Shown in pieces: positions 31,295 through 62,938 of a stretch of 64,000 nucleotides of DNA. Position numbers and translations under genes: made by a program. Each line of letters begins with the position of its first letter. Position 1 is the first letter of the stretch. The notes beneath the pieces are model-generated. The model saw nothing but the letters and a program-made list of their open reading frames with translations. It searched no databases and was not told where the DNA came from. This stretch comes from Hirudinaria manillensis (lineage: Eukaryota; Annelida; Clitellata; Hirudinida; Hirudinidae): assembly GCA_034509925.1 (NCBI GenBank), contig CM067528.1, positions 1,572,501-1,636,500 on the forward strand, written 5' to 3'.

Positions 31295-32631
31295 TTAGAG
31301 GACCTCCATGATGGATGGAAGGAAGCACAGATGGGTTTCATTTTGAACCGTCAGAAGTTCCAGCGACTGAAAGGAAGTGGAAAATATTAATTAATTACGG
31401 AGTTAATTGATTAAAACATGGCCTGTAATAAATAAATAAATTAAATTGAAATAAAGCATAATTCTAGGAATCATTTTTGTCAAAGATTTTTCACGACGAC
31501 TCTATAATCATTCTAAATAACATAATGAATAAATAAATAAATAAAAGAATTATAATTATAAATAAATTATAATAAAAGAATTATAAAAATAATTTAAAAA
31601 CAGAATAATGAAAGAAATAACAAAGACTTAAAGAGGCATCAATCCCTCACTTCCGGGTTCTTTCTGATGAAGACGACGACGTCATCATCTTCATTGGAAC
31701 GTTCGTTGGTGCACATTTCCCTCGAGCTCATCGATGACTGGAATTAAAAAACAAATTTAATTTAATTTTAATTTATTCAAATTTATTCAAAATTATTCAA
31801 AATTACAAATTAATTTAATATGACATAATCGTCGGATAGTGTTTCGTTAAATGATTTTGACGGGCTTCAAAGATTCTAGTTGCCAATTTCTTAGAATATT
31901 CATTTTAATTAATTAATTTATTATTATTATTATTATTAATAAATCAATCAAACTAAGGACCAAGTTAGTAATTAATTAATTAATTTATTTATTTATTTCC
32001 TCAAATGAAATCCTAACCTCCATAACTCTCATCATGGAGTCTTTGTAAACCCACGTGTTGAAAGCATATCCAGCCAAGTACAGAAGGAAGATCACAGCCG
32101 TCAACAAATGTCTAATTTTCTTCCTGATGGATTTCTAAAAACAAAATAAATTTTGTTTTTAATAAAATATAAATGGAAACAATTCGATTTTAAAATTAAT
32201 TTCTTTTAGAATTTAGTCGAAAAATATAATAACAAGGAAATTGAAAATTATGACATAAAATTTATAACATAAAGAAATAAATTATAACTTAAAATATCCG
32301 ATGGTTTTAAACCAAAACTTAACTCTTTGTGAAGCTTTATTAATCTTTTAGAATCTTTACTATTCATAACTTGTAAAAAAAACTATGTTATGTTTCTAAC
32401 TGCCATCATAAACTATTTTCAGAACAATTGGTTTATTAACCAATGCTCAAAACTCAAAACTTAAAACTTAAACTTAGCCGTCAATACGAACTCGAGGTTA
32501 CATATCGACTTTTCTAAAAATCCAACTTCCCAAATTATCCACCAGTGCCAATGTACGTCTGGAAAACCTCTCTTAGGAACAATCACAGAAGACAAACTTA
32601 CTTTGTACTTGCAATTGTACTGCTCGGACAT
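31295..32631 (-). CDS. Truncated BRICHOS-like type II membrane protein
   Basis: Exons (minus) 32602-32631, 32018-32134, 31651-31737 and 31295-31366; 101 aa, all introns phase 0. The layout copies the neighbouring BRICHOS genes: a short first exon (MSEQYNCKYK), a basic segment then one membrane helix (HLLTAVIFLLYLAGYAF), then shorter versions of exons 3 and 4, the latter carrying the first BRICHOS-type cysteine (HLCFLP). The frame stops at 31295 right after this, so the second half of the domain and any terminal peptide are missing. A short open stretch at about 31095-31125 and another near 30550-30620 could be further exons if the donor at ATGGAG|gtcctc is used. A TATA-like box lies 70 bases upstream of the ATG. 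Read as a decaying or highly diverged member of the family. Confidence 0.5.
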
Positions 32632-32700
32632 TTTTTGCCTTCGTACTCAGCTGAGAAGACACAAACAGGAGGCGATGCGAGTCCACAATGAAAACTAACA

Positions 32701-32708
32701 ACTTTATA
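32701..32708 (-). promoter_or_regulatory. TATA box of the truncated BRICHOS-like gene
   Basis: TATAAAGT on the minus strand, 70-77 bases upstream of the initiator ATG. The same arrangement recurs at the paralogues. Confidence 0.5.
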
Positions 32709-33009
32709 AGTGAATCTTGAAACTCATTCGATAAACAAAAGATTCTTGTCTACGTGGAGCTAGGAAATCGATAGGTGGCAGTCTAAGCAGTTTTCTAGGC
32801 GAAGTTAGAAAGTTACAGATCGATTTTTTTTCTCTCAGAAATTCACGTGTTTTATTGATTTTAAGTAATTGCTTTTCATTATTTTGTAGCTGGATTGTCT
32901 GAGTCATAGAACATCGAAAAGGATTTCCACGGTGTACGCTTTGAGTTTATACAGGTATCATTGTTGTTATTAATATTTGTAAATCGATCAAGATGGCTTG
33001 AGAGATATA

Positions 33010-33245
33010 AACTAAATGTTTATTAGAACAAGTTCATTAAAAATCAACTAGTTATTATTAATAGGTTAGTAGAGATTGTTAAGTTTTTGTGAGGGTAAGT
33101 TACGAATTGATTGAGTTTCAATTATTTGTTTTAAAAGCCTTCCAAGCGCCGTCTTTTCTCAGATTTCAATGCAAATCTCCTTGCAAAGTGAGAATATACA
33201 GGGCTTGAAGCAGTACCTGAGAGAAATAAACTTGGAAATCACCAG
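33010..33245 (-). pseudogene. Duplicated relic of a BRICHOS terminal (peptide) exon
   Basis: On the minus strand 33136-33214 resembles the last exon of the next gene (33427-33515): both contain TAC-TGY-TTC then cysteines ending in KEIC and a TGA followed by GAAAA. The flanking sequence is also duplicated (GTTAGTAGAGATTG and GAGTTTCAAT.ATTTGTTT occur in both copies). The relic keeps four cysteines with spacing x3, x4, x3 but lacks the KR cleavage site, and its acceptor phase does not fit the upstream exon. It is either a dead duplicate or a substrate for exon replacement. Confidence 0.6.
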
Positions 33246-33426
33246 GCGTTTAACCAATTTGTTTATTAAAAGTCAACTAATTAAATAAATAAATAATTAA
33301 TTAATTAATATCTAATACGTTAGTAGAGATTGATAAAATTACATGAAGGCAAATGAATATATGAATCAAAAGAGTTTCAATGATTTGTTTGTTTTAGAAA
33401 TTTTCAAATCAAAATTTCAAATTTTC

Positions 33427-35266
<1,840 letters not shown>

Positions 35267-35317
35267 GCCAAAGAGCAGTCAGAGGTTGAACCACACTCTA
35301 GCAATTCTGATTCTCCG

Positions 35318-35325
35318 TTTTTATA
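35318..35325 (-). promoter_or_regulatory. TATA box of the four-cysteine BRICHOS gene
   Basis: TATAAAAA on the minus strand, 52-59 bases upstream of ATG 35266. It is a near-perfect match to the consensus and lies in a short GC-richer context. Confidence 0.6.
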
Positions 35326-36779: not shown

Positions 36780-37708
36780 ATGGTATTTCCATTAATTTAA
36801 TTCATTTTTTGAATTTGTAAAATGGCAAGCAATTATATATTGCAACATCAAGACCTAACTGATTTCAGAGACTCAAAGCTTGGATCGGAATTTGGGCGTT
36901 GATCTGGAATTTGTCTGATGCCGGGTGTTTGTAATAACAAATCAATTTAAACTATTAAAAGCGTTTTATAATATTTCCTGCTTGGCAACAATTGATTGAG
37001 TATTCGGGTCCTGGACCATACTTTATCTTATCTTTCAAATTAATGATTTGATCGAAGTTACTGGAAATTTAAAGATAATAACGATGATATATAAGCTTCA
37101 GATCAGGGGTGTTTTTTCCAAAATTGGAACAGACTGCTTTTAAATCATTTTTAGACGTTAAGTAATACATAATACGAAAATTAAAACCTTGTTCGGCTAA
37201 AATGGTATTTTTTTTAATCCTTTTACAATTCTTTTTTTTTAAGTTGTAAATTGCAAGCAAATTTGTGTTCCTTCATCAGGACATTAATAATTTCAAAGCT
37301 TGGATCGGAGTTTGGGCGTTGATCTGGAATTTGTCCGATGCCGGGTGTTCGTAATAACAAATCAATTTAAACTTTTAAAACTGTAATTTATAACTGTTTT
37401 TAACAGAATAAATAATCATATTTTTAATAAGATTAATTTAATCAGAATAAAATTCACATCCAGATGTAAGGACTTGCTGGCACGCCCAGGAAAGAAAGGC
37501 CAAAGTCCCATTAACTCACTTTACATCAAAAAATCTGAAAAAATGTTCGGAATGCATGTTCCTGTGCTATGTCATAGAAGTTTGCAGAATCGTATTCTAC
37601 GAACATGTTCGGGATATTTGCTACTTAAATACCGTAGAAGTCGAAAGTGGAACCATTGCACTTGAAGAGGGAGGATATACGATCTATGTCTATTATTGTC
37701 CGAAGTAA
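36780..37708 (+). CDS. Small secreted PAN/Apple-like protein, copy A
   Basis: Exons: one ending exactly with the ATG at 36780-36782, then 36869-36926 (58 bases) and 37464-37708; 101 aa. The 58-base exon encodes a signal peptide (KAWIGIWALIWNL). The last exon encodes the mature domain with cysteines in TCWHAQ, KKCSECMFLC, VCRIVFYE, DICYLN and IYVYYC, the CxxxC...C..F.Y.....C.L pattern of PAN/Apple modules, which bind protein or carbohydrate. The initiator codon is split from the signal peptide by an intron whose donor follows the ATG directly, and the other copies share this. A second, defective first-exon/signal-exon pair lies inside the last intron (37202-37204 and about 37297-37350); an 8-base deletion removed its acceptor. 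Function unknown. The PAN assignment rests on cysteine spacing only. Confidence 0.7.
37202..37350 (+). pseudogene. Defective duplicate of the PAN-like 5' exons
   Basis: An ATG followed directly by gta (37202) and a near-copy of the signal exon (about 37297-37350) repeat the arrangement of copy A. Relative to copy A the sequence agagactc is missing at the acceptor, so splicing would shift the frame into a stop after a few codons. The whole block from about 37016 to 37380 is a duplicate of about 36586 to 36960. Confidence 0.65.
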
Positions 37709-38002: not shown

Positions 38003-38963
38003 TACAGTGCGCGTCATAAAGATAGGACAGGTACTAGAATCACAAGTTTTCTGTCTCTATCTTTAAAATTACCGGTAAACTTTGGTCAAAATGCTGATTT
38101 TAGCGATCACAAAAGAGTAATTAATTAGTATTCAATAAAAGTTAAGACTAAAATTTGAATATTGAGAATCCACCAAGAAACACTTTTGATGTTGTTTCTC
38201 GGAGTTTCCGCAACGGAGCGTGGGGTCTCTTCCGTTGAGGAAAAAAATTTTTATTACAGGTTTCACAAAAGTTCATTAACATAATAAGACTCCTTATATA
38301 TTACTTGATGTCATTAACATGTTTATAGAATAAAATATCGATAGGTAACGTTATTATTGATGGGTTTAGGAAAGCAACTTAGCGATGTTGAAAGAGGACA
38401 AATTCTTGCCTTTAAAGACTTGAATTTGTCAATTTTTGGAAATTTCTAGTTGGATGAATCGCTCTAGAAATGTTATTAGTCGTTTTTTAAGTGATCCACA
38501 AAGTTATGGAACGATTTGTTCCCCTGGAAGACCAAAAAAACTGGATGAACGTCAGAGAAGAGTCATCCTTCGCGAAGCTTCCAAGGGGCTCAGTTCAACA
38601 AAGGACCTAAAAAATAGCTTAAAGCTAAATGTCAGTAGATCGACAATATTGAGATGTCTCCGTGGAAGTGGTTTTCTAAAGTTTGTTAAGCGTCAGCACA
38701 AGCCGCTTCTGACGGAGGCCCACAAGAAGTTCCGAATGAACTGGGCAAAAGAAATGCTGGATTTGGACACCAACTAGAAGGGATTGCTTGCCAGGAAAAT
38801 ATATTGTAATGGTAAGCAATATTCCAACGTTCAAGAGCTGAAAGACTCTTTGGAAAAGGCCTGGAAAGAGCTGGATGAAGACAGCCTAAAACCTTTCCTG
38901 GATTCATTAAAAAACAGAATTAAAGAAGTAATTATGAAGAAAGGAGACAAAACTCATTATTGA
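38003..38963 (+). mobile_element. Decayed Tc1/mariner (Tc3-like) transposon
   Basis: The left end begins at a TA with TACAGTGCGCGTCATAAAGA, typical of Tc3-like terminal repeats. A transposase starts at ATG 38360 (LSDVERGQILAFKDLNLS), shifts frame near 38430, and continues to 38775 with the paired helix-turn-helix DNA-binding region (ISSWMNRSRNVISRFLSD, then GRPKKLDERQ). The catalytic DDE core is missing: after NWAKEMLDLDTN the frame stops and only a C-terminal remnant (VQELKDSLEKAWKEL, to a stop at 38961-38963) follows. No matching right terminal repeat was found. It is inactive. Confidence 0.8.
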
Positions 38964-39198: not shown

Positions 39199-42180
39199 AT
39201 GGAGAGGTCGATAACGCCGGATAGCCTCGAAATGATTTTGAACGCAGTTATGAAACAAGCGATTGAAAATTCGAACCTCCTGACAAAACAGCTGGGGGAG
39301 CACATGACGAATGCAATTGGCTAAATGAACACCAATACGAATAAGATGTTGGAGGCATTTTCAACAACAATTCAGGTCACGATGTCGCAAATAACCAAAA
39401 CGTTGACTGAAGCTCTGAATGAGATGACTAAAACGTTTCTGACCAGGATGGAGACTCTCGAACAGTCATTTGTAACTCGTGCCCCCAGCGTGGATTTGAC
39501 AGAGATCAAGAATGTCTTGCGGAACGCCGAAAAAGAAAGAGTTGAGAAGAGCAGGCGCTCAACAAATGTTATTGTTTCCGGCTTACCAGCTCAGCCAACA
39601 CTCGACGATACCAAACTTGTACATAACTTCATCGAGCAGAATCTCACTGTGAAGCCTGCCATCACAAATATACGTCGTTTTGGGAAAGATACCAAGCTCT
39701 GTATCACTCTCTCGAACTCTGAGGCAGTAAGAGACTTGATCTCGTCTTCTAGAATTCTCAGAATTTCCCAAGATGCTGCCGTCAGAAAAGTATTCATGAA
39801 CTATGACTTGACGCCCAGCGAAGCTGAAGCGGCCTACCAGAAAAGATGCCAGAGAAGACTGAAAACCGCTCAGAGTGGCTCAACAAAGGCATCCGCAACC
39901 GAGACACAACCAACCTCTCAGCCCTTTCGGAAATGAACCAAAATCATGGGCCTCCACAAATATCAGAAGCCTAATAAGCAAAAGAGAAGAACTATCTTTG
40001 TTTTTGAAAAGTCACAACCTAGAGGTTTTTGGTTTGGTTGAAACTTGGTTGGACAGCGAACCCGATGGCTTATTTCTGTTAAAAGAATATCAGGCTTTTC
40101 GTTGCGACAGGGGCTCTCGGGGTGGAGGTGTTGCTCTACTTGTAAAGAAAAATCTTAAAGTTAGACAAATACCCATACCGTTGGAGTACAAATCCATTGA
40201 AATCGTTTGTGTTGATATTCTTACGTGTTGTTCAACTTGCCGAGTTATTACCTATTACAGACCAACCGGGTTCAATTCAAATTCCGTTGAGTATGCCAAA
40301 AGAAGTGTCCACTGTTTGGACTATCTGTGCAGGAGTACTGGACTGGTATGCGTCATGGGAGATTTCAACCTTCCGTGTGTCAACTGGCAAAACCACTCCC
40401 ACCCCAACAATGAAATCTATAATACATTTATCAACTTATTTGACGAGATGGGACTTCACCAATTTGTCCAGTCACCAACGCGACAATCTAACATCTTAGA
40501 CCTGCTCTTCTCCAACGATTCATGTTTCATATCAGACATCAGGATAATGCCACCAATCTCCCAGAGCGACCATAACACCATTGTCTTCAAAGTGAATCTT
40601 CCAACCCAACCAGTCACAATTCATAACCTGAGATACAGACACTTAACTAAATCAGCCTATGAAAATCTAGACAGCTACCTTTGCAACATAAATTGGAATG
40701 AGTTGTTCCAATACTGCTTCTCTGTTGATGACTGTTGGAGAGTGTTTACAGATTTTGTTAGCAACGGCATCAATAGCATCGCTCCCGAACGTGTCAAACT
40801 CGGCACCACTATAAAATCACTCAAGCCTTCCTACCCCAGCTTCATTCTAAAGGCTCAAAAACTAAAGCTTAAAGCCTTTCGCAAGTGGCATCAAAGCAAA
40901 AGAAGCGAAGACAAAATTATTTTCAACGCTTTCTCCAAAAAACTCAAGAAAGTCATAGATGAACACCACGAAATCCAGGAAAGCAGGCTGGCACTGACCG
41001 GCAATTTAGGACAGTTTTACCGCTTCATCAACAACAAACTTTCAGCACATAACCCAGTGCAAGAGTTAAAAGCCCAAGATGGACTCTACACATCAGATCC
41101 AGATAAAATAGCAAATATTTTCAATAGATACTTTTGCAGTGTTTTCACAATCGATGATGGAATATGCCATACTATGTCTCCACGCACCAGCAAAAAAATT
41201 GATCAATTAATGTTCACTCCTGATCGCACATACCAGACACTCCGCAAGCTCAAACCGTCCCTCTCATCTGGTCCGGATGGAATCACTAACACTCTCCTCA
41301 GAAACTGCTGGTCTCTGTTTGCCACTCTCCCATATCTTCAACTTCTCCTTCAATATGCACGAATTACCCCTTGATTGGAGATCTGCCCATGTAACCCCCG
41401 TACACAAAAAAGGGGCCACTTCTGATCCTGGTAACTACCGACCAATATCGCTCACATCCTCCTGCTGTCGAGCAATGGAACGGATGATCAACAAAGACAT
41501 CTTAAACTACCTTCAAGCTAACAACCTCATATCACCTGAACAGCATGGCTTTTTAAATTCCAGATCTACGTGCTCCAACCTGATTGAATGTACATATGAT
41601 TGGTCGGCATCAATGAACCAGGGAACAGACATAATATACTTTGACTTTAGAAAAGCCTTCGACTCGGTGTCTCACCTAAAGCTACTATCTAAACTTCAGG
41701 CCTATGGCATCTCAGGCAATCTACTTTTATGGCTTGAAGCTTTCTTATCCAACCGAACCCAGGCAGTAAAAATTAATGGCCACCTTTCCAATGAAATGGA
41801 CGTGATTAGTGGCGTGCCTCAGGGGAGTGTGCTTGGACCTACACTTTTCCTTATATACATTAACGATGTTACCGATACGCTTAACGATAACTACGTCAAA
41901 TCAAAACTATTTGCTGACGATATCAAACTGTACTCAGCATCACCACTCACTCAAAGTTCCGCGAGGGCTTGGCCGTCCGAAAAAACCGTCAAAGTGGTTA
42001 TTGCAGCGCTTCTTAAATCACTCTGGCGTGAATGCCGTCCGAATTTACCTCAGATTGAATAACATTCTATTTGTAGATCCAAAATGTCCATCAATTTCGA
42101 AATTGCCATCCAACATTTTTAGGTTAATCTAGAATAGTGCTTGTCATTCTTATTATATTACGTTATATTTTTGAAAAAAT
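39199..42180 (+). mobile_element. Decayed CR1/Jockey-like non-LTR retrotransposon (LINE)
   Basis: ORF1 (39199-39936) encodes a coiled-coil/RNA-binding type protein (STNVIVSGLPAQ, then IRRFGKD) interrupted by an in-frame stop at 39322. ORF2 overlaps its end (39875 onward) and has a full apurinic endonuclease: VETWLD, YYRPTG, GDFNLP and SDHNTIVF. The reverse transcriptase follows with PVHKKG, RPISLTS, FDFRKAFDSVSH, QGSVLGPTLF and FADDIKLY. A frameshift lies near 41310-41330, where the endonuclease frame is lost and the RT frame begins. The RT is cut just after FADD (about 41960). The sequence from there to about 42180 is of unknown origin and ends near an AATAAA at about 42176. The element sits between PAN-like copies A and B. 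Confidence 0.9.
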
Positions 42181-42597: not shown

Positions 42598-43049
42598 ATG
42601 GTATTTTCATTAACTTAATTCATTTTTTGAATTTGTAAAATAGCAAGCAATTATATATTGCAACATCGTGACCTAAATGATTTCAGAGACTCAAAGCTTG
42701 GATCGGAATTTGGGCGTTGCTCTGGAATTTGTCTAATGCCGGATGTTTGTAATAGCAACTGAATTTAAACTATTAAAACTGTAATATAATGCTTTTAAAA
42801 GATTAAAAGATATTGACGAATGCTGGGACTCCCAGGACAAAAAATCCAAAGTTCCAATGACTCACTTTTCGTTAAGAAGTCCACAAAAAAGTGGGGACTG
42901 CATGTTACTCTGCACCATCACAAAATTTTGCAGATTCGTCTACTTTGACCACTCAACGAACGTGTGCTACTTAAATATCATGGATGTCAGCAACCATTGA
43001 ACTCACTCCCGGTCCCTATTCGATTTACGTCTATTTTTGTCACGAATAA
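42598..43049 (+). pseudogene. PAN/Apple-like protein, copy B (frameshifted)
   Basis: Same layout as copies A and C: ATG 42598-42600 followed at once by a gta donor, a 58-base signal exon 42687-42744 (AWIGIWALLWNL), and a last exon from 42810. The domain reads well through ECWDSQDK, DCMLLC, KFCRFVYFDH and NVCYLN. A small deletion near 42990 then shifts the frame into TGA at 42998. The lost frame continues as LTPGPYSIYVYFC to a stop at 43047-43049. The last acceptor (taaaag) is weak. Most likely inactive, or a truncated product lacking the final cysteine. Confidence 0.65.
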
Positions 43050-43774: not shown

Positions 43775-44346
43775 ATGGTAATTTTACTGCTTAAAAAATT
43801 GAAATTTTCAAATTATAATGTAAATTGTTAATAAAATCGATTATTAATTCAGTTATATGTAATCGTTCACATATAGTTCTTTATAAATATTAAGTAGATA
43901 TTTCGTCAGCACTTCTAAATTAATCGAAAAAAAAATTACAGGATATTAAAATTTGGATCGGAATTTTGCTATTATCATGGACTGCTTCTAAAGCCCATGG
44001 TTAGTATTATCAAAATCTTTCGAAACTGATCTTAGGGATATATCAGTTAGCTTTAAACACTTTATATTTTTTTTTTACAGTGATACATCGAGGTGGAGCT
44101 TTAGATATTGAAAAGGACTGCTGGGGAAAGCAATCGAGGAAAGCCAGCGTTCCAGGTACTCACTTTGCCAAGAAGAGCCCGGTGAGAGTACAGGAGTGCA
44201 AGCTTCTGTGCACTATTATGATGCATTGCAAATTTATTTTCTTTGAACACGACTTGAATCTGTGCTACGTGAATGAAATCGAAGTAAAACCAGATACCGT
44301 CCCTCTCAGTCCTGGAAATTTCACGATCTACGTATTTACATGCTAA
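43775..44346 (+). CDS. Small secreted PAN/Apple-like protein, copy C
   Basis: Exons: one ending with ATG 43775-43777 (donor gtaatt follows directly), then 43942-43999 (58 bases) and 44081-44346; 108 aa. The signal peptide is DIKIWIGILLLSWTASKA. The mature part has cysteines in DCWGKQ, ECKLLC, HCKFIFFEHD, NLCYVN and IYVFTC, aligning with copy A without gaps in the core. The phase-1 junction and identical 58-base middle exon confirm paralogy. The upstream intergenic sequence has diverged more than between A and B, so this is the older branch. An AATAAA lies at about 44575. Function unknown; a PAN-like extracellular binding module is the best reading. Confidence 0.75.
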
Positions 44347-45668
44347 GATGCGTTTGACAAACGTTTGCAACGACTATTACAAGAACAATATTGCCAACAA
44401 CGTAGTCAAAAGTAGAGTATTAATATAACACACCGATTAGTATTACCGAAACCCTTCCTGCCTGTTTCCCATAAGCATGCAAGGAGAAGACTTCCAGGAA
44501 CCAAAACGTTCACAACGTCGTTTATTAAACAGCTATCGTAATTTTTTCGTACCTACTTTTAGTAACTGATTGCTAATAAATTGCTTTTCAATATCTTCGC
44601 TGACTCCTTGTTTGTAATATTGTGTAGTATTCTGTCTTGATGTTTTTATTCGAAAATGCCACAAGAATGGACAATAGATTTTCACGAATGGTTTTAAGCA
44701 AAAGAAATCGATCTTGGTGAAAATGCCTTAAAATGGATTATTAAGTTGCCTTCTCACTTTTAGTTTTTAGAAAATTTTGCTCGAAGACTTTTCGAGGTAG
44801 CGCAAGCAAAATGGCTCATTAAACTAAAACAATCCCATTGAAACTGTCAGCCAAGATCCGCCTTTTAAATTTGCACTAAATGTACCAAACTGTCCTGAAG
44901 CTGTTAACACGCCTCAACTTCACTTAAAAAAAAATGTGTATCCGGGTTTCACAGAGGTTACATCTCTGATAAGCAATGTTATCGTCACGCCCCGGTCATG
45001 ATAATAGCAGTATTTGTGCTTTAAAAAGTACACCGATATATCTTTTAACCTTCCAAATAAGTCTTAGAAATTATTGAGCATCAATTCTTCCGGAAAATGA
45101 AATAAGTTGTTCAAAGTCTCGAGCTTTGACAACATAAAAACCAGCTGAAATATGAGCTCAGCTACGACCCAAACGATGCCAATGTTGACAACTATTTGAA
45201 ATTTCCTCAAATGTTTACATTAAATTCAACAGAAATCTCTCAGCACGATTACCAATGAAAATATTTTCAACGGTTACTCAAGTGGTTAAATTAGACAACT
45301 TTAGAAACCATTTCTTATCAATAAACGTGTCCACTTAATAAAACATAATGTCCTAATACAATTCGGCACTTGGTGTGATATTATCGTCAATTTAAAAAAA
45401 AAAAATCTTATATTCTAAATATACATTTATTTTTAATGTATTTTGAGAGATTTTTGTTAAAAGATTTTAGTTTTATTAGCTGTAAAATTTTTAATAAATA
45501 ACATTTTAATTAAACTTCAACTCGACACGGTGTCTTTTATTGTTTTTGTTTATCGCCATCAACATCTTCATCATCATCACCATGGACAAACTTGGATTAA
45601 ATTATCAAAGCAATTATTTAGCTCAAATAAAGCTTATTTAAATACGCAAGAAATTCGCTATTCGAATC
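44347..45668. other. Intergenic region before the zinc-finger gene
   Basis: No supported exon. The last hundred bases before the ATG at 45669 are the likely 5' leader of the zinc-finger gene. Confidence 0.5.
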
Positions 45669-47447
45669 ATGGACAAAATTGCAGAGGACGTTTACAACTG
45701 GAAGTTTACCAGTTTGACCATCAAGTGTCCGAAATGCAGTCAATTGTTTTATACGAAATCCACTCTCAGAAGGCACTCGAATCACTGCAACGCTTCCAAT
45801 GATAGTCAGACGAATTCCGGCGTGGAAGGAGAAGAAATTCTGCAGAATTCTGGAGGAATTGCTTTGAATTCCGAACCGATAAAACAGGAGCCTGAGTTGC
45901 AAGAATGTGCTTTGAAAAGTTCTGAGACGAAAGGACCTCATGGCCAATTTGAAGAGCCGCCTTTGAAGAAGCTGAAGACGGAGACGAACAACAACGATAG
46001 CAACAACAACAACAAGGAAGAAGAACAATCGTTCGGCAGTCAAACGATCCCCATAAAAACCGAACCAACAGGTGAAGAAGTCCGAGCAAAGGGCAATAAC
46101 AATGTTAAGAAGAAGAAAAGCAAAAATCTAGAAAAGTCTTTCCAATGCTCCTTTTGCGTCTATAGCACGACTCTTCGTCACAATCTCGAACGTCACGTAC
46201 GAGGCCACAAGGAATTGAAAAACTACAAATGTCCTTACTGCACCTTTTCCTCCAACGGTAGGAACATCATAAAGGCTCACGTGAGTTCCTATCACGGCGC
46301 AGAGGGCAGCGACGACCCGGTTGAAATCAGTCGCCAATCGGCAGATAAACACAATCAATCCATTCTTTCAATCTCGACCAACAACGAATCACTAGGAGAG
46401 ATCACGACCAGCGACGAATCAGTCGTCGAACAGCAATCGTACGGTCTCGAATCCGTTGGTTCGACTCAGAATTCCACGTCTTTGGCCACCATCGATGAAC
46501 CTTTAGACGAAGCAAACGAGGCAGAAGATGATGAAGTTGATGAAAGCGGAAAGAACAAAGTTTTAGGACAAAACGAAATTATCAAGTCTCTTGAACTACT
46601 CTCCTCTGTGCGACCTAGTACCAAGAAAAATCAATGGACGATCAGAGCTTTTCGCGAAGTAAATAAGTGAGTTCCAAGCTAATCCATTCGACTTGATCGA
46701 TTCATTATATTATTATAATTAAACTAGTTAATGTTATTACTAGATGGTTGAAAAATTAAGACCTGTAAAATTATGATTTCTAGATTGTCGAAGTATTCAT
46801 GTCCGGAATGTCCTTTCAAGACTAACGGATTGGACCAATACAGATCACACGCCAAGAATCACAGAATCACCAATCCCAACAGAACTTACTACAAGTGTCC
46901 TTACTGCTCGTTTGCTTCACTCAAGGCAGCTGTCAGAGACAATCACCTGAAGTTGCACAAGAAAGAGTAAGTTTGATTTTTTAAGTTACAGATCAATACG
47001 TTTAGAATTAAAATAGAATTCTTGTTCATGGATGTATCCAGTGCATCAAATTAAACGAAATATTTAATTAAGTTGTAATAATTATTATTCTAAAAATCAC
47101 AAACTTTACTTTTCAGAGACATCTACTCACCCGACAATTCTGAAGTATCAAAATCATCATCACCGCCGTCTAACCTCTGCCGATGCGACCTCGCAGACGA
47201 GGTTGGTTACCCTGACCTGGCCTGCTACAAGCAGATAGCTTGCCCCTGTTGTACCGTCAAGAGTCCCAGCGTGACCTTCATGAGATGCCATGCTGTCGGC
47301 CACGTGGACATGGTCGTGGCTTCGCGTTTCAAGGTCTTTGATCCGAGACTAGATGCTGCCGATACCCTTCTAAGATTCACGTGCCTGAAAAACAATGAAG
47401 TCCCTCGGAATGTTTTTCAATTGAAGCCTGGAACCGTATGCGATTAA
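45669..47447 (+). CDS. C2H2 zinc-finger protein
   Basis: Exons 45669-46666, 46784-46966 and 47117-47447; phases 2, 2; 503 aa. Fingers: CPKCSQLFYTKSTLRRH at about 20-36; a pair (CSFCVYSTTLRHNLERHVRGH, about 159-179, and CPYCTFSSNGRNIIKAH, about 187-208); a second pair in exon 2 (CPECPFKTNGLDQYRSH and CPYCSFASLKAAVRDNH, about 338-384); and a degenerate cysteine-rich C-terminal domain in exon 3 (CRCDLADE, CPCCTVKSPS, RCHAVGH). The linkers are acidic and asparagine-rich, with sumoylation-like IKQEP and IKTEP sites. Tandem pairs with CPYC...F are common in invertebrate REST-like or CTCF-like nuclear proteins; no specific ortholog is recognised. Presumably a nuclear DNA-binding regulator. Confidence 0.86.
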
Positions 47448-47972: not shown

Positions 47973-49713
47973 TCAAAATAACTTCCAGATGAAACAGCCG
48001 GCATCGGCAGCCCAGCAATACTGGGCACAGTCCCATAAACTGCGGACAGCCTTGCAGATGTCAGAGCAAGTGTCTCCACAATCTCCTCTTTTGCGTTTAC
48101 TTCCGTTTCCTGAAAGGTTTTGAAAGTTTATATTTGAACGTATAAATAATTAAAATTTTAATTTTAATATATTTAAATAAATATTTAAAAAGTATTTTTG
48201 GCAATAATATTTATCCGAAACAAATGATAATAAAACAATCAATTAAAAGCTCAACCAACCAGCAAGCGGTGGACAAGCTGGTGTTACCCAGTAAGTTGAA
48301 AGTCCCTTGCAGAGACTACGAGATTTCTTGTTCAAGAAGCTTGTGTCTGGAATTGGCATTGTGTTGCGGACAAAGAAAAGACGTTTGGAGTTTTTAGGAA
48401 TCTTCAATTAAAAATAATTCGCTGGTATTCAAGTAGTTCAAATCTTATATATAATATAAAAAAATTATATCAAATCGGCGTTCATATCCGCTGTTCAGAG
48501 CTCTGTTTCATTGCTGCCACAAGATAACTTAGTATCTGGAAAAACTAATATCGTCCGGGTAACCTCTGCGTTATCAATTGACTATTTCTATTTAAACGAT
48601 TTGGAATGAATTTAAAATTATAAAGGTCATTAATGAAGTCGAATTTTTTTATTATTTGCAATTTTATTCTTTAAATCTCACGCTGGGGTCGAATGGTATT
48701 TCGACTTGGGTCAAGTCCATCTTCTGGGTTTCATTCATTGGCGACACGTAGCAGACGCTCTCAGACGAAGTGACCACTTTAACGACTTCCAAATACTTAA
48801 AAGTAAAACTTAACAATCTAAATTTAATTTTAAAACTTAAATTAAATTACAAAATCGCATTAAATTCCCCTCAAAGTCAGCTTCCCTAATGAATTCAACC
48901 AATCGTGACATCGGTTTGAAAGAATGGATGGATGGATGGATGGGTGGATGAAATCGTACGTACAGAATTGTAGTCATCGACGTAAGTCGCATCGACGTTC
49001 TTGTCGGTGACTCGGTATTCGACGATACTGGCAGTCAAGTCAGCGTCCACGTCCTGATAGGTTCCCGGTTTGGTTTGCATGGATTGCTTGACGGGAAATT
49101 GTAAATAGACGTTTATTTAAAATTCTAAACGAGACAAAAAAAAGACAAAAGCTGAAACTGAGAAATTGTAAACTCTATTACATCATATTTCAGTGCCCGT
49201 GTAGCACGGCACTATATAAATGACATATTATTATTATTATATGGAGTTTCATTTCGACCAACAAAAAGTTAAGTCAATTATAGTTATTGTTAATAATAAA
49301 AAAGATTAATTAATTTAACCAATTTTATGTTTCCATTTAGTGTTTTTGATCACCTACCGATGCTATTTTGTGGAAGGCATCCGTGAAAAGATAAATTCCA
49401 ACTAGAAATCCGACGAGAATGAGAATGGCAACCGTGACGCAACTGACTCCGACGACAACGCACCTCTTCGTGGACTTTTTGGTCGGGGAAACCTTTCAAA
49501 AGAAGTAGATGTAGATTCATATCTGAACGCAAATCATTTACTATTACTGGCGTATTGATGAAACGGTGTTCGTAATTTTTTGCGTTTTAAAATTGGAAAA
49601 AGGATATAAGAACTGCCCTCTGGCAGTAGGATTCGTACGTTGAGCTTGACCGAGTCCATTGCCACGTCTACAGGATGATTCTTTTCTTCAACGGAAGTCA
49701 TCGTCCAGACCAT
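47973..49713 (-). CDS. BRICHOS peptide precursor, six-cysteine peptide (KRKR site)
   Basis: Six exons (minus) 49639-49713, 49358-49492, 48964-49086, 48682-48795, 48260-48401 and 47973-48109; 241 aa. A cytosolic MVWTMTSVEEKN segment precedes a basic STKR and a membrane helix (about 35-59), so type II orientation. The BRICHOS domain has TYVDDYN (key aspartate), the first cysteine in SVCYVS and the second in SLCKGLSTYW. The last exon supplies SKRKR, a strong furin-type site, then a 37-residue peptide beginning GDC with spacing C-x3-C-x3-C-x8-C-x3-C-x6-C. This copy is the most diverged of the 48-61 kb group. The start was set at the upstream ATG because the first exon then matches paralogue length (25 codons). 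Inferred role: secreted cysteine-stabilised defence peptide. Confidence 0.88.
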
Positions 49714-52110: not shown

Positions 52111-52164
<54 letters not shown>

Positions 52165-53229: not shown

Positions 53230-54345
53230 TCATTTCCAAAGCAGCCAGCAGACAATATCACTAATCCAGCAGTAATTGCCACACTTAAAGCTTCCACTGA
53301 TCCACTTACAGGCGTAATTGCACACCGTTCCACAGAGACCTCTCTTTTGTTTTTGAGATCCTAAAAGTTGGAAATAAATTAAAAAGATTTTATTAAAAAT
53401 TAAGGGCGCTTGAAGAAAGAGGAACGTATTTTTGTTATAAATCCGATTTCGTTCAACTAACCGTTCGCTGGTTGGCAAGTTGGATAAGCCCAATAAGTGG
53501 AGACTCCTTGGCACAAGTTGCGAGACTTACGATTCATAAAAGAAATGTCAGGTATTGGAATCTTGCCTCTCACGAATACGTGGTCGACATTGCCATCCGT
53601 AGTCTGTTATGTATTTTTTTTACAAATATATGTTTTTAACATTCATATTCAAGAGTAAGAGTTTAGAATACCGAGTGCCATTACCTTGTTCATGTTGTTG
53701 ACCAATTTAGTCAGATCAGGTTTTTGAGTTACGTTCAGGGAAACAACAAAACACATGACGTCGGCGTCTTTTGACAGCTTAACAACTGACAGAAACTGCA
53801 AATCAAATTTTAAAAAAATAAATATTATTATTTAATATTTTCCTAAAATATTTTGAATGTCATACCATGTTGTAGTCATCAACGTAGACGGCATTGACAC
53901 CGTTGTCATTGACATTGTACTCGACGACATTCGAAGTCAAATCCACATTTGTGTCTTGGTTTGTGTTTTCTCTCGTTTGTTTGGAGTCCTGAATTGGGAA
54001 GGTTTCATGATAAAAAAATATCTTAAAATTGTTAATTTTCATTTATTATGCTAAATAATTTTCAACACTGACCGAAACAATCTTGTGGAAAGCTTCAGTG
54101 AAGAGATAGATGCCAACCAGCAGACCAATCAGAATGAGGATTGCAATGATGACGCTAACAACTCCGATGATCACATACTTCTTCGTCTTGGAAGGCTTCG
54201 GACTAGCCTGAGAAAAAGTAAGAAATTTATTTAGATAATCTAGACCATTTTTATCTAAATAATTATAATTTTCTCTCACCACTGGTCCTCCAATGACCAC
54301 GGCGTCGAAATTCTTCTCGCTATCCACCGGCATTTTCAGCACCAT
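53230..54345 (-). CDS. BRICHOS peptide precursor, six-cysteine peptide (KQKR site), first of near-identical trio
   Basis: Six exons (minus) 54280-54345, 54073-54207, 53866-53988, 53685-53795, 53462-53603 and 53230-53360; 235 aa. The cytosolic part is MVLKMPVDSEKNF; KTKK then a membrane helix (YVIIGVVSVIIAILILIGLL) indicates type II. BRICHOS: VYVDDYNM, first cysteine in DVMCFVVSLNVT (with an N-glycosylation sequon), second in NLCQGVSTYWAYPTC. The last exon gives SQKQKR then a 36-residue peptide starting GLC, spacing C-x3-C-x3-C-x8-C-x3-C-x6-C, rich in tryptophan and with few charges. Exon lengths 135/123/111/142 are identical to the next two copies. A GGAATTTCC kappaB-like site and a TTTTAAA TATA-like box lie upstream. 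Confidence 0.92.
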
Positions 54346-56458: not shown

Positions 56459-57614
56459 TCAAGACAACCATGAACATACTACGCAGAAACTGCCGCATCC
56501 AAACCACTTGCAGATAAAACTGCAAGTAGCAGTACATATGCCTCTCTTTTGCTTTTGGGATCCTAGAATTAGGAACAAATTAAAACGTAAATTAATTAAA
56601 AACATATTATGCTCGAGAAGCGAGGAGCATATCTTTGTTAAAAATCCGATTTCGTTCAACTAACCGTTCGCTGGTTGGCAAGTTGGATAAGCCCAATAAG
56701 TGGAGACTCCTTGGCACAAGTTGCGAGACTTACGATTCATAAAGGAAATGTCAGGTATTGGAATCTTGCCTCTCACGAATACGTGGTCGACATTGTTGTT
56801 CGTAGTCTGCGTTATTTTTTTGAATTTATATTTTTAATGATTTTAATATTCTAAAGAAAAATAAAAATTAACATCTTTTAATACTGATTGCTGTATTACC
56901 TTATTCATGTTGTTAACTGCTTGACTCAGATCAACTTTTTGAGTTACGTTCAGGGACATGACGAAACACACGACATCATCGTCTTTTGTCAGCTTAACAA
57001 CGGACAGGAACTGAAATGTAAATGGAATAAAAAATGTATTAATTAAATTAACAACACGTTAATTAATAATTGTTAATCGATTATCATACCATGTTGTAGT
57101 CATCAATGAATACAGCTTTAATGCCGTTATCTTCGACAATATATTCAATGGCATTCGATGTCAAATCCACATTTGTTTCTTGGTTTGTGTTTTCTCTCGT
57201 CTGCTTGGTGTCCTGAATGACATAGAAACTAGCTTTTTCAAAAAAGCTATTTTTATAATTAATATTTTAATAATTATTATAATCGCCTATTATAATATTT
57301 TAAATATTTTTCAATACTAACCGAAACAATCTTGTGGAAAGTTTCAGTGAAGAGATAGATGCCAACCAGCAGACCAATCAGAATGAGGATTGCAACGATG
57401 ATGCTGACAACTCCGATGATCACATACTTCTTTGTCTTGGAAGTCTTCGGACTCATCTGAGAAAAAGGAATAAAATTAATTAAACTTTTTAAATTTTTAT
57501 CTCCCAATTAAATAATAATATTAATCTAATTAATAACATAATTTCACTCACCACTGGTCCTCCAACGACCACAGCATCAAAGCTTTTCTCGTTGACAGTC
57601 GTTTGTAGCACCAT
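56459..57614 (-). CDS. BRICHOS peptide precursor, short six-cysteine peptide, second of trio
   Basis: Six exons (minus) 57552-57614, 57322-57456, 57090-57212, 56900-57010, 56665-56806 and 56459-56562; 225 aa. It is nearly identical to its neighbours through the membrane and BRICHOS exons (KTKKYVIIGVVSIIVAIL; AVFIDDYNM; DVVCFVMSLNVT; NLCQGVSTYW). The last exon keeps SQKQKR but encodes a shorter, 27-residue peptide starting GIC, spacing C-x3-C-x3-C-x4-C-x3-C-x2-C. So the loop between cysteines 3 and 4, and that between 5 and 6, are each four residues shorter than in the 53 kb copy. Presumed membrane-anchored precursor of a secreted peptide. Confidence 0.92.
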
Positions 57615-57658
57615 GTTCTGTCCTTGCTGTTGTTGCTTGAGAGTCAGTGCCCTGCTGC

Positions 57659-57700
57659 TTTTAAAAGTATTTTGCGGTCACGCTTCAGCGAACTCAATTC
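57659..57700 (-). promoter_or_regulatory. Conserved core promoter block, 56-57 kb BRICHOS gene
   Basis: TTTTAAAA at 57659-57666 is a TATA-like element 45 bases upstream of the ATG. Next to it on the plus strand is GCGGTCACGCTTCAGCGAAC, repeated almost unchanged at 60817-60836 in the sister gene. A kappaB-like GGAAATCCC lies further upstream at 57788-57796. Confidence 0.5.
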
Positions 57701-57796
57701 AAACTGGACTCTATTTGTGAGAACTGGTTCTGCTTCTTCAACATCCGTCCTTGTTCAAGTGATTCAGTCTCTCTTTTTGAAAAATTTGGAAATCCC

Positions 57797-59519
57797 AAAA
57801 GTCATTTCATATCCGTTTGCAAAGTAGAAAGCAGCAAAGTTATATCAAATAGGATAAATTATATTTTTAGTTGAAATAAATTTTAAATTACATTTTCTAA
57901 AAAATTAATTTGTCAATTGTTTATTATAATATTCAACGGTTAAGCAATTTTCTATTTTAAATATTAAATATTAAATATTAAACATCAAATAAATCAAGTC
58001 CTTGAATTAAATTTGATTCGTTATTTTGGAATAACCCGGAGTAAGAAACAGAGTCTGCTATGAATCGCTAAGAAACTCGAAGTAATGAAATCGAGAGAAG
58101 CAAAATAATGACTGACTGACAGATTCGTAGGCCGTGGTTCCAAGATTTATGACTTTTAAGTCGTGACTTTGTCACGCTTGACAGAGTGGACAGGAAATAG
58201 AATTACTAGAATTACGCCAAAATATAATTTCACAAAAAAAGAAATTTTACAGTTTCCTTTAATCCGCAAAATCGAATTTTTTTTGTCATTTCTCAAAATC
58301 TTTTAATAATCAGGCCAATAATCACTCCATACCCTCGTGGGTGCATCGATGGCTGATTATAGGAAATATTGCTATTATATTATTTAAGTTATGTTACATT
58401 ATATGTTATATTATTGTTACAAGACATTGTAATACCTACATTTACAATAACTACCAAGTCAGGAATGATTAGCTTCTTAATAGAGGCAAATTTTCAGATA
58501 AACAATTTTCAATAATTATAAAGTAATGGAATGTTATTCAAGAAATAGATGTCAGAGAATTTCTAAAGTTTCGGTTTCGAGAATTCTGGTTTGACTTCAT
58601 TTTTAACTTCTAATAATAGACTAAGCAGTCTGATCTTTGAAAACTTTGAAAGAACGTCTAAATAGTCTGTCTAAGAGGACATGTCTAGGTCATGTAAAAG
58701 AATTAAAAATAATAACGTAACCAATAAAATATAAAATAACCGCTTAGATAAGGGACAGGCAAAAAGCAACTCACAGGAGAGGGTCTTTGGAAACCCTACC
58801 CAGACCTTACCCTAACCCTGCTCAGACCTTTCCCTAACCCTATTCAACTCTTGAATCTGGAAAACCATGGCAAACCATGATGAAACCTGTGCCTACGATT
58901 TGTTTTTTGATTGTCACTTATCCAGGCACCGATATTTCTAACGAGCTTAAATGAACTTTTTTTCTAATTTTGATTCAGGAATTCATTCCTTAACCCTAGT
59001 TATTATAACTATAATTTTGATTTGTAAATATAATTATACCTAAAGGTTGTTCCATCAACATCATAATTTTAGTTTCTATAGCGTTGATTACGTCTACAAT
59101 TGTTTGTCGAGAACGACACGAAAAAAGTGATGAATTTAGTTAATCGTCAACCTCGCAAACATTTTATTTGAAGATATTTCCTATTTTCAAACGATAAAAA
59201 AATCTCTGTACCCTTTGTTTCTGTCATTTTAACTCAAAATGCACGCAGCATTTTTCTAAGATCTGATTCTGAAACGATTTTTTGCCAAACCGGCGCAAGT
59301 CCAGACAATCAGCAATAGAACACACTTTCTCAGCATTGGCATGTTCCTTTCAAAGGATTATTGATGATTAAGCAATAAAAAATAGTATTTCATTAATAAA
59401 TGAAGAAAAAATTGAAAATAAACCAATAAATATCTTCAAAGCGAATAATTAATTAACTCATTAATGCAAATCGTTGGAAGCAGTCAAAATTCTCATGAAA
59501 AGAATTCTTTTCTGATTTT
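57797..59519. other. Intergenic spacer with telomere-like motif
   Basis: No exon seen. At about 58785-58850 a 22-base unit occurs twice, each containing CCCTAACCCT. The rest is AT-rich and unstructured. Confidence 0.5.
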
Positions 59520-60754
59520 TCATTTTTTCTTTCCCAAAAAGAAGCAAAATATGTCGGAAATCCAGCAATAATTGTCGCATTGATTGCTATCGTTGCTAAA
59601 CAATTTGCAGATGAAACTGCACAGAGAGCCACATAGGCCTCTTTTTTGCTTTGGAGATCCTAGAATTAAGAACAAATTAAAACGTAAATTAATTAAAAAC
59701 ATCTTTTTAAACACAAAATGCTTGAGAAGCGATGAACATATTTTTGTTAAAATTTGTAAAATTTCGTTCAACTAACCGTTCTCTGGTTGGCAAGTTGGAT
59801 AAGCCCAATAAGTGGAGACTCCTTGGCACAAGTTGCGAGACTTGCGATTCATAAAAGAAATGTCAGGTATTGGAATCTTGCCTCTCACGAATACGTGGTC
59901 GACGTTGCTGTTTGTAGTCTGTGACATTTTTTTCAAGCTCATGTTTTTAAATTTAATTTCATTATAAGTTTAATTAAAGTTTAATTTAGAGTGAAAATGA
60001 AGAGAAACATTTTGAAAAGCTTAATACCTCGTTCATGTTGTTGACCCCTTTAGACAAATCCGGCGTTTGAGTTACGTTCAGAGACATGACAAAACACACG
60101 ACATCATCGTCTTTTGTCAGCTTAGCAACTGATATGTACTGCCAGACAAGTGGAAAAAGTGAAAATTATGTTAAAGAAAGTACTAATACTAATAAGTTAA
60201 TTAATAAAACGTTAATTTGTAATAATTGATTATCATACCATGTTATAGTCATCAACAACTACAGTTTTGATGCCATTATCTTCGACAATATATTCGATGA
60301 CATTCGATGTCAAATCCACATTTGTTTCTTGGTTTGTGTTTTCTCTCGTTTGCTTGGAATCCTGAGTGACATAGAAACTAGCTTTTTCAAAAAAGCTATT
60401 TTTATAGCTGGTATTTTAATAATTATTATAATTGCTTAAATTGTTTAAAATATTTTTTAATACCAACCGAAATAATCTTGTGGAATGCTTCAGTAAACAG
60501 ATAGAAGCCAGCTATCAGACCAATCAGAATGAGAATTGCAACGATGATTCCGACAACTCCGAAAATTGCATGCTTCTTTGTTTTAGAAGTCTTCGGACTT
60601 TTCTGAGAAAAAGGAATAAAATTAATTAAATAATCGATTAATTTTTAATACATTAATTTTGGCTAATTAATAACATAATTTCTCTCACCACTGGTCCTCC
60701 AACGACCACAGCGTCAACGTTTTTCTCACTTTGGACCGTCGTTCTTAGAACCAT
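59520..60754 (-). CDS. BRICHOS peptide precursor, long six-cysteine peptide, third of trio
   Basis: Six exons (minus) 60689-60754, 60468-60602, 60239-60361, 60028-60138, 59777-59918 and 59520-59659; 238 aa. Cytosolic MVLRTTVQSEKNV; membrane helix after SKTKKH (AIFGVVGIIVAILILIGLIA); BRICHOS with TVVVDDYNM, DVVCFVMSLNVT and NLCQGVSTYW. The last exon gives SPKQKR and a 39-residue peptide starting GLC, spacing C-x3-C-x3-C-x9-C-x3-C-x6-C, ending in three lysines. The exon-5 block is almost base-for-base the same as in the two sister genes, while the peptide exon differs. Introns also align with the 56 kb copy, including a hairpin-forming AGCTTTTTCAAAAAAGCT in intron 2, so the two arose by recent duplication. 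Confidence 0.92.
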
Positions 60755-60802
60755 GTTCTGTCCTTGCTGCCACTTACTCTGTTCGATTATGTTCTGCTTC
60801 CC

Positions 60803-60843
60803 TTTAAAATTAATTTGCGGTCACGCTTGAGCGAACCCAATTC
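60803..60843 (-). promoter_or_regulatory. Conserved core promoter block, 59-60 kb BRICHOS gene
   Basis: TTTAAAA at 60803-60809, 49 bases upstream of the ATG, followed by GCGGTCACGCTTGAGCGAAC, one base different from the sister gene. A partial kappaB-like GGAAATTC lies at 60933-60940. Confidence 0.5.
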
Positions 60844-61600
60844 AATAATAGGTTGGATTTATTAGATCTGTTTCTGCTTTCTTTAATTCCAGTCCCTGTT
60901 CAATTCATTCAACTTTTCTTTTTGATGCATTTGGAAATTCATTTCATATCCACTTCCAAAAAAAAAATGGTCGTAAATTTGTCTAGATAAAACAATTACG
61001 GATTATAGTGAAGCTGTGCCCATTAGGTTAACATTTAAACAGTTAAAATTACATTTAATGATATTTCTAATGAGTTAATGTTATAAAAAAAATAAATTTT
61101 AAAAATGCCCAATGAGTTTTCATTTTGATATCTTTGCTTACAGAACGTTCAGAATGTATCTGAGTTGTTGGATAAAACTCAAGCAAGTAAAACTCTCACA
61201 AGTTGTGCCTTAAAATTAATACATAATCATTAAATTTTTTCTTTAGCATTCAGCACTTTTATCTCTTTGGCACTCTGTCATTAAATGAATTGATCCTTAT
61301 AAATCAAACAGATTCGCAATCGTTAAAGAACTGTGAGAAAGAACTTAAAATATTCTTTTCAAGGACCGATAATAATGTTCTTAATGGCATGCAATGCCCA
61401 CGCTGAGTGTCAGGCAAGCACGGAATAGAAGCACAAATCTATAGAAGCCTTATTTTAAAAAATATCTTTGAAATTTCAGACAAGCCAGTAATTTAGCGCT
61501 AAACTCGGTTATTCATGTAAAATGTAAACTTTTAAATGTTTATTCCAAGAATTCTTTGTTAATCAGTAGAAAATGGTTTGGGTTTTCGTTCGAACAGAAA

Positions 61601-62938
61601 TCACCAGCAAAAATAATGATAGCAATTGTCATAACACTTCCATTCATTCTTCCAGTTCTTATAGCACGATTGAGAACAGTAAAAGCACATATTTCTCTTC
61701 TGCCTTGCAAATTCTAAAAATTAAGAAAAAAAAATTTTTTAATTTAAAAAATAAACAGAACGAAAAAATAGACATGAATAGAAATGTGTAAATGACCTTC
61801 GTCATCTTTGCTTATTGGGTGTATCCAGTAGGTGGATGTTCCATTGCACATTGTCTGAACAGCTCCATTTAGGAAACTGATGTCAGTAATCGGAACGTGA
61901 CTTCTTTCGTAGAGAACTTTAGCGGCAACAACCTGAAATTGAATTGATAAACTAAATAAATATTCAGCTCAAATAAGCTCGAGTATTCTGCAACTGCGAA
62001 GTGGTTATTTCAAGGGCAAACCTGGCTTTCATTCTTGATCTCCTTTGGATCTGATTTTTGAACGTCTGACAGGAAAGTAACAAAACAAACTTCTTCTTTT
62101 AACGAGCTTATCTTTACAACACTCAGAAACTGGGGGGAAAACATTAAAATTTTAAATTTTAAAAATGTTCGGAACAACAGAAAAATTTAAGAGAAGAAAA
62201 AAATTTTAAATTCACTTAATAACCAAGTTCAGTTTACAAAAAAACAAATTAATTTTTGTTTGAAAAAGTTGTTAAAATGCAAATTCATGATGAGAATGAG
62301 CGATAAGTACCGTGTCAAAATCGTCTATGAAATGCGCCTTGATGTCCAAATCGTTTTGAAAACGCTCGTAAACATTCGACCCATCGTGAGCTGAACTTCC
62401 CTTTAATACTGACGTCGGAGAGACCTAAACAGAATTTTCAAACAAAACATTTTAAAATCAAAGCATCCTCTAACGAAGCAAGAGAACCCAAATCGTACTT
62501 ACATCTCTAAACTCGCACCTGACTCCGGCAAAAAACGCAACACTAAGCACTGTCCCAATGACAAGGATGGACAAAAGAAATGCAATCCCAGCCAAAACTT
62601 TTTTCTTGAAGTTTTGCATATCTCTCTTCTAGTTGAAATTAAACAAAGTCGATTCAATTTAACAATAAAAATAAGTTGGAAGATAATGATAGAAAAATAT
62701 TATTATTTGGTAGTTAAATTGTAATTGATCTCATAATTCAGCAAAATAAATCCCAGGTAATCTTAAATGTCATCTGAAGGCTTATCTCTTCAGGAAGAAA
62801 TTGTTAGAGACATCAAGACCTTGTCATTATAAATCCTCCTATAGTTTTTAATAACTTTATTATTACCAAATAGTTTACCTGGCGACTGACTTCATCTACA
62901 AGGTTCTTATCGAAATCTCCGACAGGTTTCCACTGCAT
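61601..62938 (-). CDS. Diverged BRICHOS peptide precursor, six-cysteine aromatic peptide (RQKR site)
   Basis: Six exons (minus) 62879-62938, 62503-62628, 62311-62424, 62022-62129, 61797-61932 and 61601-61713; 218 aa. The first exon encodes MQWKPVGDFDKN. A basic NFKKK precedes the membrane helix (VLAGIAFLLSILVIGTVLSV), so type II. BRICHOS: FIDDFDT carries the aspartate, EVCFVTF the first cysteine, TMCNGTSTYW the second. The last exon encodes ARQKR, a canonical furin site (R-x-K-R), then a 30-residue peptide starting NMC with spacing C-x2-C-x3-C-x9-C-x3-C-x4-C, rich in tyrosine, tryptophan and lysine. Same exon count and phases as the other copies but low sequence similarity outside key residues. 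It has the best TATA box of the cluster. Confidence 0.9.

Follow-up and report, generated by a model that had tools for sequence, protein, structure and literature searches.

We analysed a 64,000-nucleotide stretch of the genome of the leech Hirudinaria manillensis (the window; contig CM067528.1, positions 1,572,501 to 1,636,500) and identified a tandem group of minus-strand genes that encode a membrane helix, a BRICHOS domain, and a C-terminal cysteine-rich peptide. The window sits on a contig of 13.7 Mb (C3) in an assembly of 148 Mb and 23 contigs. Coordinates of the genes g0 to g6 are positions in the window, and C3, C5, C6, C7, and C11 denote contigs of the same assembly; six window genes are named g1 to g6, genes of the same cluster beyond the window are named h, and those of a second cluster k. 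Gene models were built with the exons of g3, the clearest copy, as queries; splice sites had to be GT/AG and keep the frame open. All models were also made to follow the phases of the g3 introns (0,0,0,0,1), so that a good fit means that an open solution exists for each gene and nothing more.

The initial annotation counted seven genes here; six of them are complete models of six exons each, and the seventh (g0) is a partial gene that the BRICHOS profile does not recognise. The complete genes are g1 (33427..35266, 220 aa; exons 35266-35198, 34842-34702, 34584-34462, 34278-34180, 33834-33693, and 33515-33427, with an ambiguous exon 4 donor), g2 (47973..49713, 241 aa; exons 49713-49639, 49492-49358, 49086-48964, 48795-48682, 48401-48260, and 48109-47973), g3 (53230..54345, 235 aa; exons 54345-54280, 54207-54073, 53988-53866, 53795-53685, 53603-53462, and 53360-53230), g4 (56459..57614, 225 aa; exons 57614-57552, 57456-57322, 57212-57090, 57010-56900, 56806-56665, and 56562-56459), g5 (59520..60754, 238 aa; exons 60754-60689, 60602-60468, 60361-60239, 60138-60028, 59918-59777, and 59659-59520), and the divergent g6 (61601..62938, 218 aa; exons 62938-62879, 62628-62503, 62424-62311, 62129-62022, 61932-61797, and 61713-61601). 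The partial or divergent unit g0 (31295..32134, also on the minus strand) has a membrane exon (32134-32018), an exon at 31737-31651, an exon at 31366-31295 that ends in a stop, and an uncertain exon 1; neither exon 5 nor a last exon was found for it, its joined translation does not match the BRICHOS Pfam profile, and its position is absent among the matches listed in both genome-wide searches. Lacking a profile match, g0 was rejected as a complete BRICHOS member.

The six complete genes share one plan. Exon 1 encodes 20-25 residues from the ATG; exon 2 a basic stretch and one membrane helix (mean hydropathy 2.7-3.4), with three to five lysines or arginines in the 15 residues preceding the helix vs one or two following it, the positive-inside order; exons 3-5 the BRICHOS part; and exon 6 a lysine-arginine (KR) pair and then a peptide with four to six cysteines up to the stop. 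This is the layout that the initial annotation described, both for the shared short first exon, basic residues, single helix, and BRICHOS-type exons, and for the dibasic or furin-like site and short cysteine-rich C-terminal peptide in six genes. A hydrophobic N-terminal region followed by a BRICHOS propiece is also the arrangement of the annelid BRICHOS antimicrobial peptide (BRICHOS-AMP) family. With the phases imposed from g3, six-exon models were obtained for 15 of the 16 modelled genes, h8 being without exon 1; h4, k4, and k5 lack full models and are left out of the 16-gene counts.

BRICHOS (PF04089) is the top Pfam match in all six spliced window proteins and in h1, and six of these seven exceed the cut-off of 25 bits. 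The scores of g1 to g6 are 23.9, 35.5, 25.7, 25.5, 29.0, and 30.6 bits, so that five of the six translations pass, in agreement with the domain assignment of the initial annotation; g1 falls just under the cut-off (E 5.1e-5), and its exon 5 matches that of g3 at E 8e-14. Both second-cluster precursors that were scanned, k1 and k2, score higher (44.7 and 51.1 bits). Three residues, D105, C123, and C176 (g3 numbering), are invariant in all 12 aligned precursors and align with the aspartate and cysteines of the ITM2B BRICHOS domain; the BRICHOS superfamily is described as strictly conserving one aspartate and two cysteines (PMC6265681; here and below, statements with a PMC number refer to excerpts of those papers).

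Cysteine-rich peptides of the last exons

The last exons of the window genes, all on the minus strand, differ in length and cysteine spacing (charges are K+R minus D+E). In g1 (33427..33515), VVKR is followed by a 21-aa peptide with CX3CX4CX3C and charge +1. Two genes share the spacing CX3CX3CX8CX3CX6C: g2 (47973..48109), with KRKR, 37 aa, and charge -2, and g3 (53230..53360), with KQKR, 36 aa, and charge +2. KQKR also precedes the peptides of g4 (56459..56562; 27 aa, CX3CX3CX4CX3CX2C, charge +1) and g5 (59520..59659; 39 aa, CX3CX3CX9CX3CX6C, charge +1), and RQKR that of g6 (61601..61713; 30 aa, CX2CX3CX9CX3CX4C, charge +1). The CX3CX4CX3C spacing is that of beta-hairpin AMPs such as tachyplesin, and that of g1 fits a two-disulfide beta-hairpin; the remaining window peptides hold three or more possible disulfides. 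Just downstream of g1, a partial second copy of its last exon (33159..33217, minus strand) can be read from the sequence; it retains the four cysteines and the stop and has a KR upstream in the same frame, yet no AG acceptor lies ahead of that KR in the open frame.

Beyond the window the cargo is more varied. The peptide of h8 has the spacing of g2 and g3, and that of h1 the spacing of g6 with a charge of +4; h2 and h3 have eight cysteines and are very tyrosine-rich, with 17 of the 33 residues of the h2 peptide aromatic and a charge of 0. The second-cluster genes carry instead a domain with 12 cysteines that spans some 80 residues; a KR stands ahead of it in k2, k3, and k6, whereas k1 has none, and the charge of k6 is -7. 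This domain is found at at least seven places in the second cluster, one with a stop, and there is a weak match with stops on C5 (E 0.06). Overall, a putative dibasic or furin-like cleavage motif precedes the cysteine-rich peptide in all six window genes and in 13 of the 16 modelled genes (the exceptions are h5, h7, and k1).

We compared this with chance by taking random GT dinucleotides of the same contig outside the cluster and asking whether the next 400 bases hold an acceptor of compatible phase and a short frame in which KR precedes at least four cysteines. Only 91 of 17,782 random GT pass (0.5%), vs all six genes of the window and, in the first cluster, 11 of 13 (h5 and h7 fail), although these genes are paralogues and hence not independent.

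Two clusters and the divergence of carrier and cargo

A genome-wide search with exon 5 of g3 finds at least 19 loci, all on C3. At least 13 of them form the first cluster (C3 1.606-1.666 Mb; six inside the window, seven beyond), and at least six form the second (C3 7.123-7.140 Mb). In all 19 loci tested, exon 5 is followed by a last exon with at least four cysteines, in frame through a phase-1 intron (the phase being imposed). Within the clusters, several stretches of 0.5-4.3 kb are 93-99% identical and others 80-89%; a 4.3 kb repeat in the second cluster (C3 7.122-7.140 Mb) reaches 99.1%. These stretches are probably recent duplications or, less likely, a doubling in the assembly. In a tree of the 16 precursors the second cluster forms one group (98/98), and g6 has the longest branch, its placement being unsure.

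The tandem neighbours g3, g4, and g5 show a strong contrast between carrier and cargo. Exons 2-5 of g3 are 80-96% identical to those of g4 and g5 with no indels (exon 5, 95-96%), vs 59-79% with 3-40 gap positions for the introns and 60-66% for the last exon. The last exon has thus diverged about as much as the introns, but its cysteines, KR, and frame are retained, the lengths in g4 and g5 being offset from g3 by 27 and 9 bases, both multiples of three. The ratio of nonsynonymous to synonymous divergence (omega) of exons 3-5 is 0.20-0.25 in the three g3-g5 pairs. Gene conversion is suggested by synonymous divergence (dS), which is 0.07-0.15 in exon 5 vs 0.37-0.81 in exons 3 and 4; exon 2 in g3-g4 is low too (0.08).

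Ten pairs were chosen for the last exon; one alignment of last exons omits k1 and k4, whose last exons run across the ends of the extracted pieces, and k5, identical there to k3. Omega was computable in three pairs (g4-g5 0.30, g2-g3 0.35, k2-k3 0.25); five pairs had saturated synonymous sites, and in h2-h3 and h2-h5 dS was zero, with nonsynonymous divergence (dN) of 0.04 and 0.07. Positive selection on the peptide is unsupported by these values of 0.25-0.35 in three of ten pairs; rather, the peptide appears to change fast in g3-g5 because there is little constraint on the last exon overall, apart from its cysteines, KR, and frame, which are retained. All six cysteines align in seven of the ten pairs, in which the other last-exon residues agree in 10-57%, the aligner itself favouring cysteines; in the other three pairs 5/6, 12/12, and 11/12 cysteines align.

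In h3 and h5, nearly all substitutions relative to h2 in the membrane exon (exon 2) change the amino acid: 20.5 changing vs 0.5 silent in h2-h3 (nominal p 0.002) and 20.5 vs 1.5 in h2-h5 (p 0.04), both uncorrected in a test that spanned five pairs, with h1-h2 showing no signal.

Neighbouring genes and other features

Other elements were noted on the plus strand of the window. PAN/apple-like exons adjoin the cluster at 42785-43000 and 44005-44346 (PAN_1 22.3 and 21.3 bits, cut-off 21.4), and a possible third (37387-37662) has no profile match; leech antiplatelet proteins reportedly use the PAN/apple fold. Mobile elements are represented by a Tc3-like transposase piece (38424-38777; HTH_Tnp_Tc3_2, 45.2 bits) and a non-LTR-like (long terminal repeat) reverse transcriptase frame (39863-42062; RVT_1, 102.9 bits). 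Two zinc-finger genes were also seen, one that by eye resembles a homeodomain gene as well (13392-15189), and one with C2H2 fingers by profile (45642-46670). Long arrays of an 8-base unit occupy 17786-18271 and 29679-30031. Elsewhere in the genome, three places with members of the macin family, a known leech antimicrobial family, lie close together (C7:254196-258593), with a weaker fourth on C5; one macin matches theromacin, whose structure is solved, at E 1.7e-16. Together with erythrocruorin-linker domains and with hirudin-family exons that exceed their cut-off, the macins indicate an annelid, most probably a hirudiniform leech.

Interpretation and comparison with known systems

Given the plan shared with annelid BRICHOS antimicrobial precursors, we assign the locus to the annelid BRICHOS-peptide family, as its leech branch, probably serving defence, with cargo of 4, 6, 8, or 12 cysteines; we consider this reading fairly probable. 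Each gene would be transcribed and translated into a type II membrane protein with a short cytosolic N-terminus, basic residues, one helix, and a lumenal BRICHOS domain, with a dibasic or furin-type cleavage site ahead of a hydrophobic peptide rich in disulfides. The BRICHOS domain would hold the peptide in the secretory pathway until its cysteines had paired into disulfides, and a furin/proprotein convertase-type protease would then cleave after KR and free it. The carrier would be kept alike by duplication in tandem and probably by gene conversion at and near exon 5, and the last exon would change under little constraint beyond its cysteines, KR, and frame, yielding cargo with 4, 6, 8, or (in the second cluster) 12 cysteines. 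By analogy with the known precursors, host defence would be the likeliest use of the peptides, and we lean towards it to a similar degree; they may act on epithelia or in coelomic fluid, perhaps on membranes. No kB-like sites were found within 1 kb upstream of the 16 genes, which is uninformative at a background of 0.06 per kb.

Several observations weigh against this reading. The window peptides have charges of -2 to +2, and none of the six reaches the +3 from which published polychaete BRICHOS-AMPs start (+3 to +6 among the rows covered of one table; PMC6780910); among the 13 KR-site peptides of the 16 modelled genes only that of h1 falls in this range. AlphaFold predicts a two-helix hairpin for the 6-cysteine cargo at a low mean predicted local distance difference test score (pLDDT 61.6; an alignment of eight rows, g2-g6, h1, h4, and h8, omitting g1, h2, h3, h5, and h7), and strands for the 12-cysteine cargo at a low pLDDT of 48.3 (three rows). 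Two genes, h5 and h7, lack both KR and the outer cysteines, k1 lacks KR, and exon 1 was not recognised for h4 and h8. The similarity of exon 5 among g3-g5 may reflect gene conversion and not constraint alone, and the rate contrast is not general: omega in exons 3-5 is 0.9-1.25 among the recent copies h2, h3, and h5 (with few changes), the last exon of h2 and h3 is 90% alike vs 83% for the rest, and when ten first-cluster genes are compared in all 45 pairings, the last exon is the less similar part in 33, the more similar part in 11, and on a par with the rest in one. So the conserved chaperone and varied effector proposed in the initial annotation describe g3-g5 well but not the whole family. 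The precursor architecture and the tandem expansion that it proposed are borne out; the window peptides may be antimicrobial, but charges below the published range keep that part of the proposal open to doubt. The reading of all the peptides as cationic AMPs was rejected, as the charges do not fit.

The same charges are what one would expect if the machinery released near-neutral, aromatic-rich peptides that are not antimicrobial but serve mucus, cuticle, cocoon, or saliva in a structural, surface-active, adhesive, or signalling role. The half-aromatic, uncharged h2 peptide and the strongly negative k6 point in this direction too, and the 11-cysteine HfBRI-75 and HfBRI-91 of the polychaete Heteromastus are likewise non-cationic and have no assigned role (PMC10745061). 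Opposed to this are the charge of h1, the tachyplesin-like spacing of g1, and the combination of tandem copies, decay, and change on a fixed cysteine frame. Such a combination is usual in immune gene families. We regard a non-antimicrobial role as rather unlikely, though it deserves to be kept in mind. Much less probable is that the cluster is simply decaying, its last exons drifting neutrally and no longer useful: the intron-like divergence of the g3-g5 last exons, the losses in h5 and h7, the omega near 1 among h2, h3, and h5, and the missing exon 5 and last exon of g0 would be explained, but the last exon keeps its frame, KR, and at least four cysteines in all six window genes, its omega is well below 1 wherever computable, and its cysteines are retained above its other residues.

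We give equally little credence to the genes being ITM2/Bri-like membrane regulators whose C-terminal peptide is a mere by-product. Bri2 is a type II protein whose C-terminal cut releases Bri23, and topology, BRICHOS domain, and C-terminal peptide of ITM2B/Bri2 are indeed like those of the cluster genes. A PDB search with the family profile also ranks human ITM2B first, although weakly (E 0.1, followed by unrelated proteins at E 0.19 and 0.48), and with g2 as the sole query no PDB entry is matched at E of 1 or less; the cluster genes thus appear to lack the clear ITM2B similarity of that family. Two single BRICHOS exons elsewhere, C11:1170223-1170339 and C6:5232971-5233084, match ITM2B (PDB 8rnu) far better (E 1.7e-6 and 1.8e-4), which suggests that the leech has ITM2-type genes separate from the cluster family and weakens this alternative, as does the variation of last-exon length and cysteine number among tandem copies.

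Returning to the leech branch of a BRICHOS-peptide family, a broader proposal, which we hold tentatively and as somewhat more apt to fail than to stand, is that BRICHOS in leeches is a general carrier with exchangeable cargo: one chaperone module, conserved and membrane-bound, would be spliced across a phase-1 intron to last exons whose peptides have 4, 6, 8, or 12 cysteines and are near neutral and hydrophobic. If so, the leech cargo would form a class of chaperoned disulfide peptides distinct from the cationic antibiotics of marine worms, and BRICHOS effectors would extend beyond polychaetes; with at least 19 leech loci, the family would be at least as old as the split between leeches and polychaete worms, or would have expanded independently. 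The strongly different rates of carrier and cargo inside single genes of g3-g5 would offer a natural test of what BRICHOS needs from its client, and the near-neutral peptides raise the question whether BRICHOS is needed for charge, hydrophobicity, or disulfide folding. As far as we found, the host group, the 6-cysteine pattern, the two clusters with differing cargo, and the inversion of the Alvinella pattern in g3-g5 are new. Two reviews place BRICHOS-AMPs in polychaetes only, in the parts concerned (PMC6780910, PMC9756803), and the polychaete setting of the initial annotation was off, the host being a leech. The open-licence literature covered on BRICHOS in leeches, clitellates, earthworms, oligochaetes, and annelids does not, in its titles and excerpts, name a leech BRICHOS gene; one paper mentions a possible role of the BRICHOS domain in ensuring that leech AMPs fold correctly, with no gene named there (PMC10748772).

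The closest plan is that of polychaete precursors, as the initial annotation had proposed. Preproalvinellacin of Alvinella pompejana has, like the leech genes, a BRICHOS propiece, a dibasic site, five introns, a C-terminal peptide in the last exon, and tandem copies among its genes, which number at least six (PMC5431198); the precursors of arenicin, capitellacin, and nicomicin share propiece, dibasic site, and C-terminal peptide. These four kinds of precursor carry a signal peptide (PMC6265681), whereas the leech genes have a predicted type II membrane helix; and their peptides hold one or two disulfides, with charges of +3 to +6 in the rows covered, whereas the leech peptides have 4, 6, 8, or 12 cysteines and are mostly near neutral. 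Nicomicins, being helical, already break the beta-hairpin rule of annelid BRICHOS-AMPs (PMC6265681). According to the excerpts available, it is the chaperone part that varies in Alvinella pompejana, the peptide being monomorphic, which is the reverse of g3-g5. In their membrane anchor the leech genes resemble HfBRI-20, -23, -25, -28, and -54 of Heteromastus filiformis, membrane-anchored BRICHOS precursors with a short N-terminus and a C-terminal peptide, and AmIMP1/2 of Arenicola marina, named integral membrane proteins that are cysteine-rich and BRICHOS-related (PMC10745061). Those are from transcriptomes of marine polychaetes, and the leech CX2-3CX3C...CX3C...C pattern is not in the descriptions seen in that paper. 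HfBRI-75 and HfBRI-91, of 75 and 91 residues, are cysteine-rich, non-cationic BRICHOS cargo like that of the second leech cluster, although with 11 cysteines vs 12 and likened by description, not by sequence; by analogy, they would show that the wider BRICHOS-related group tolerates a lack of positive charge, as seen in most of the leech peptides.

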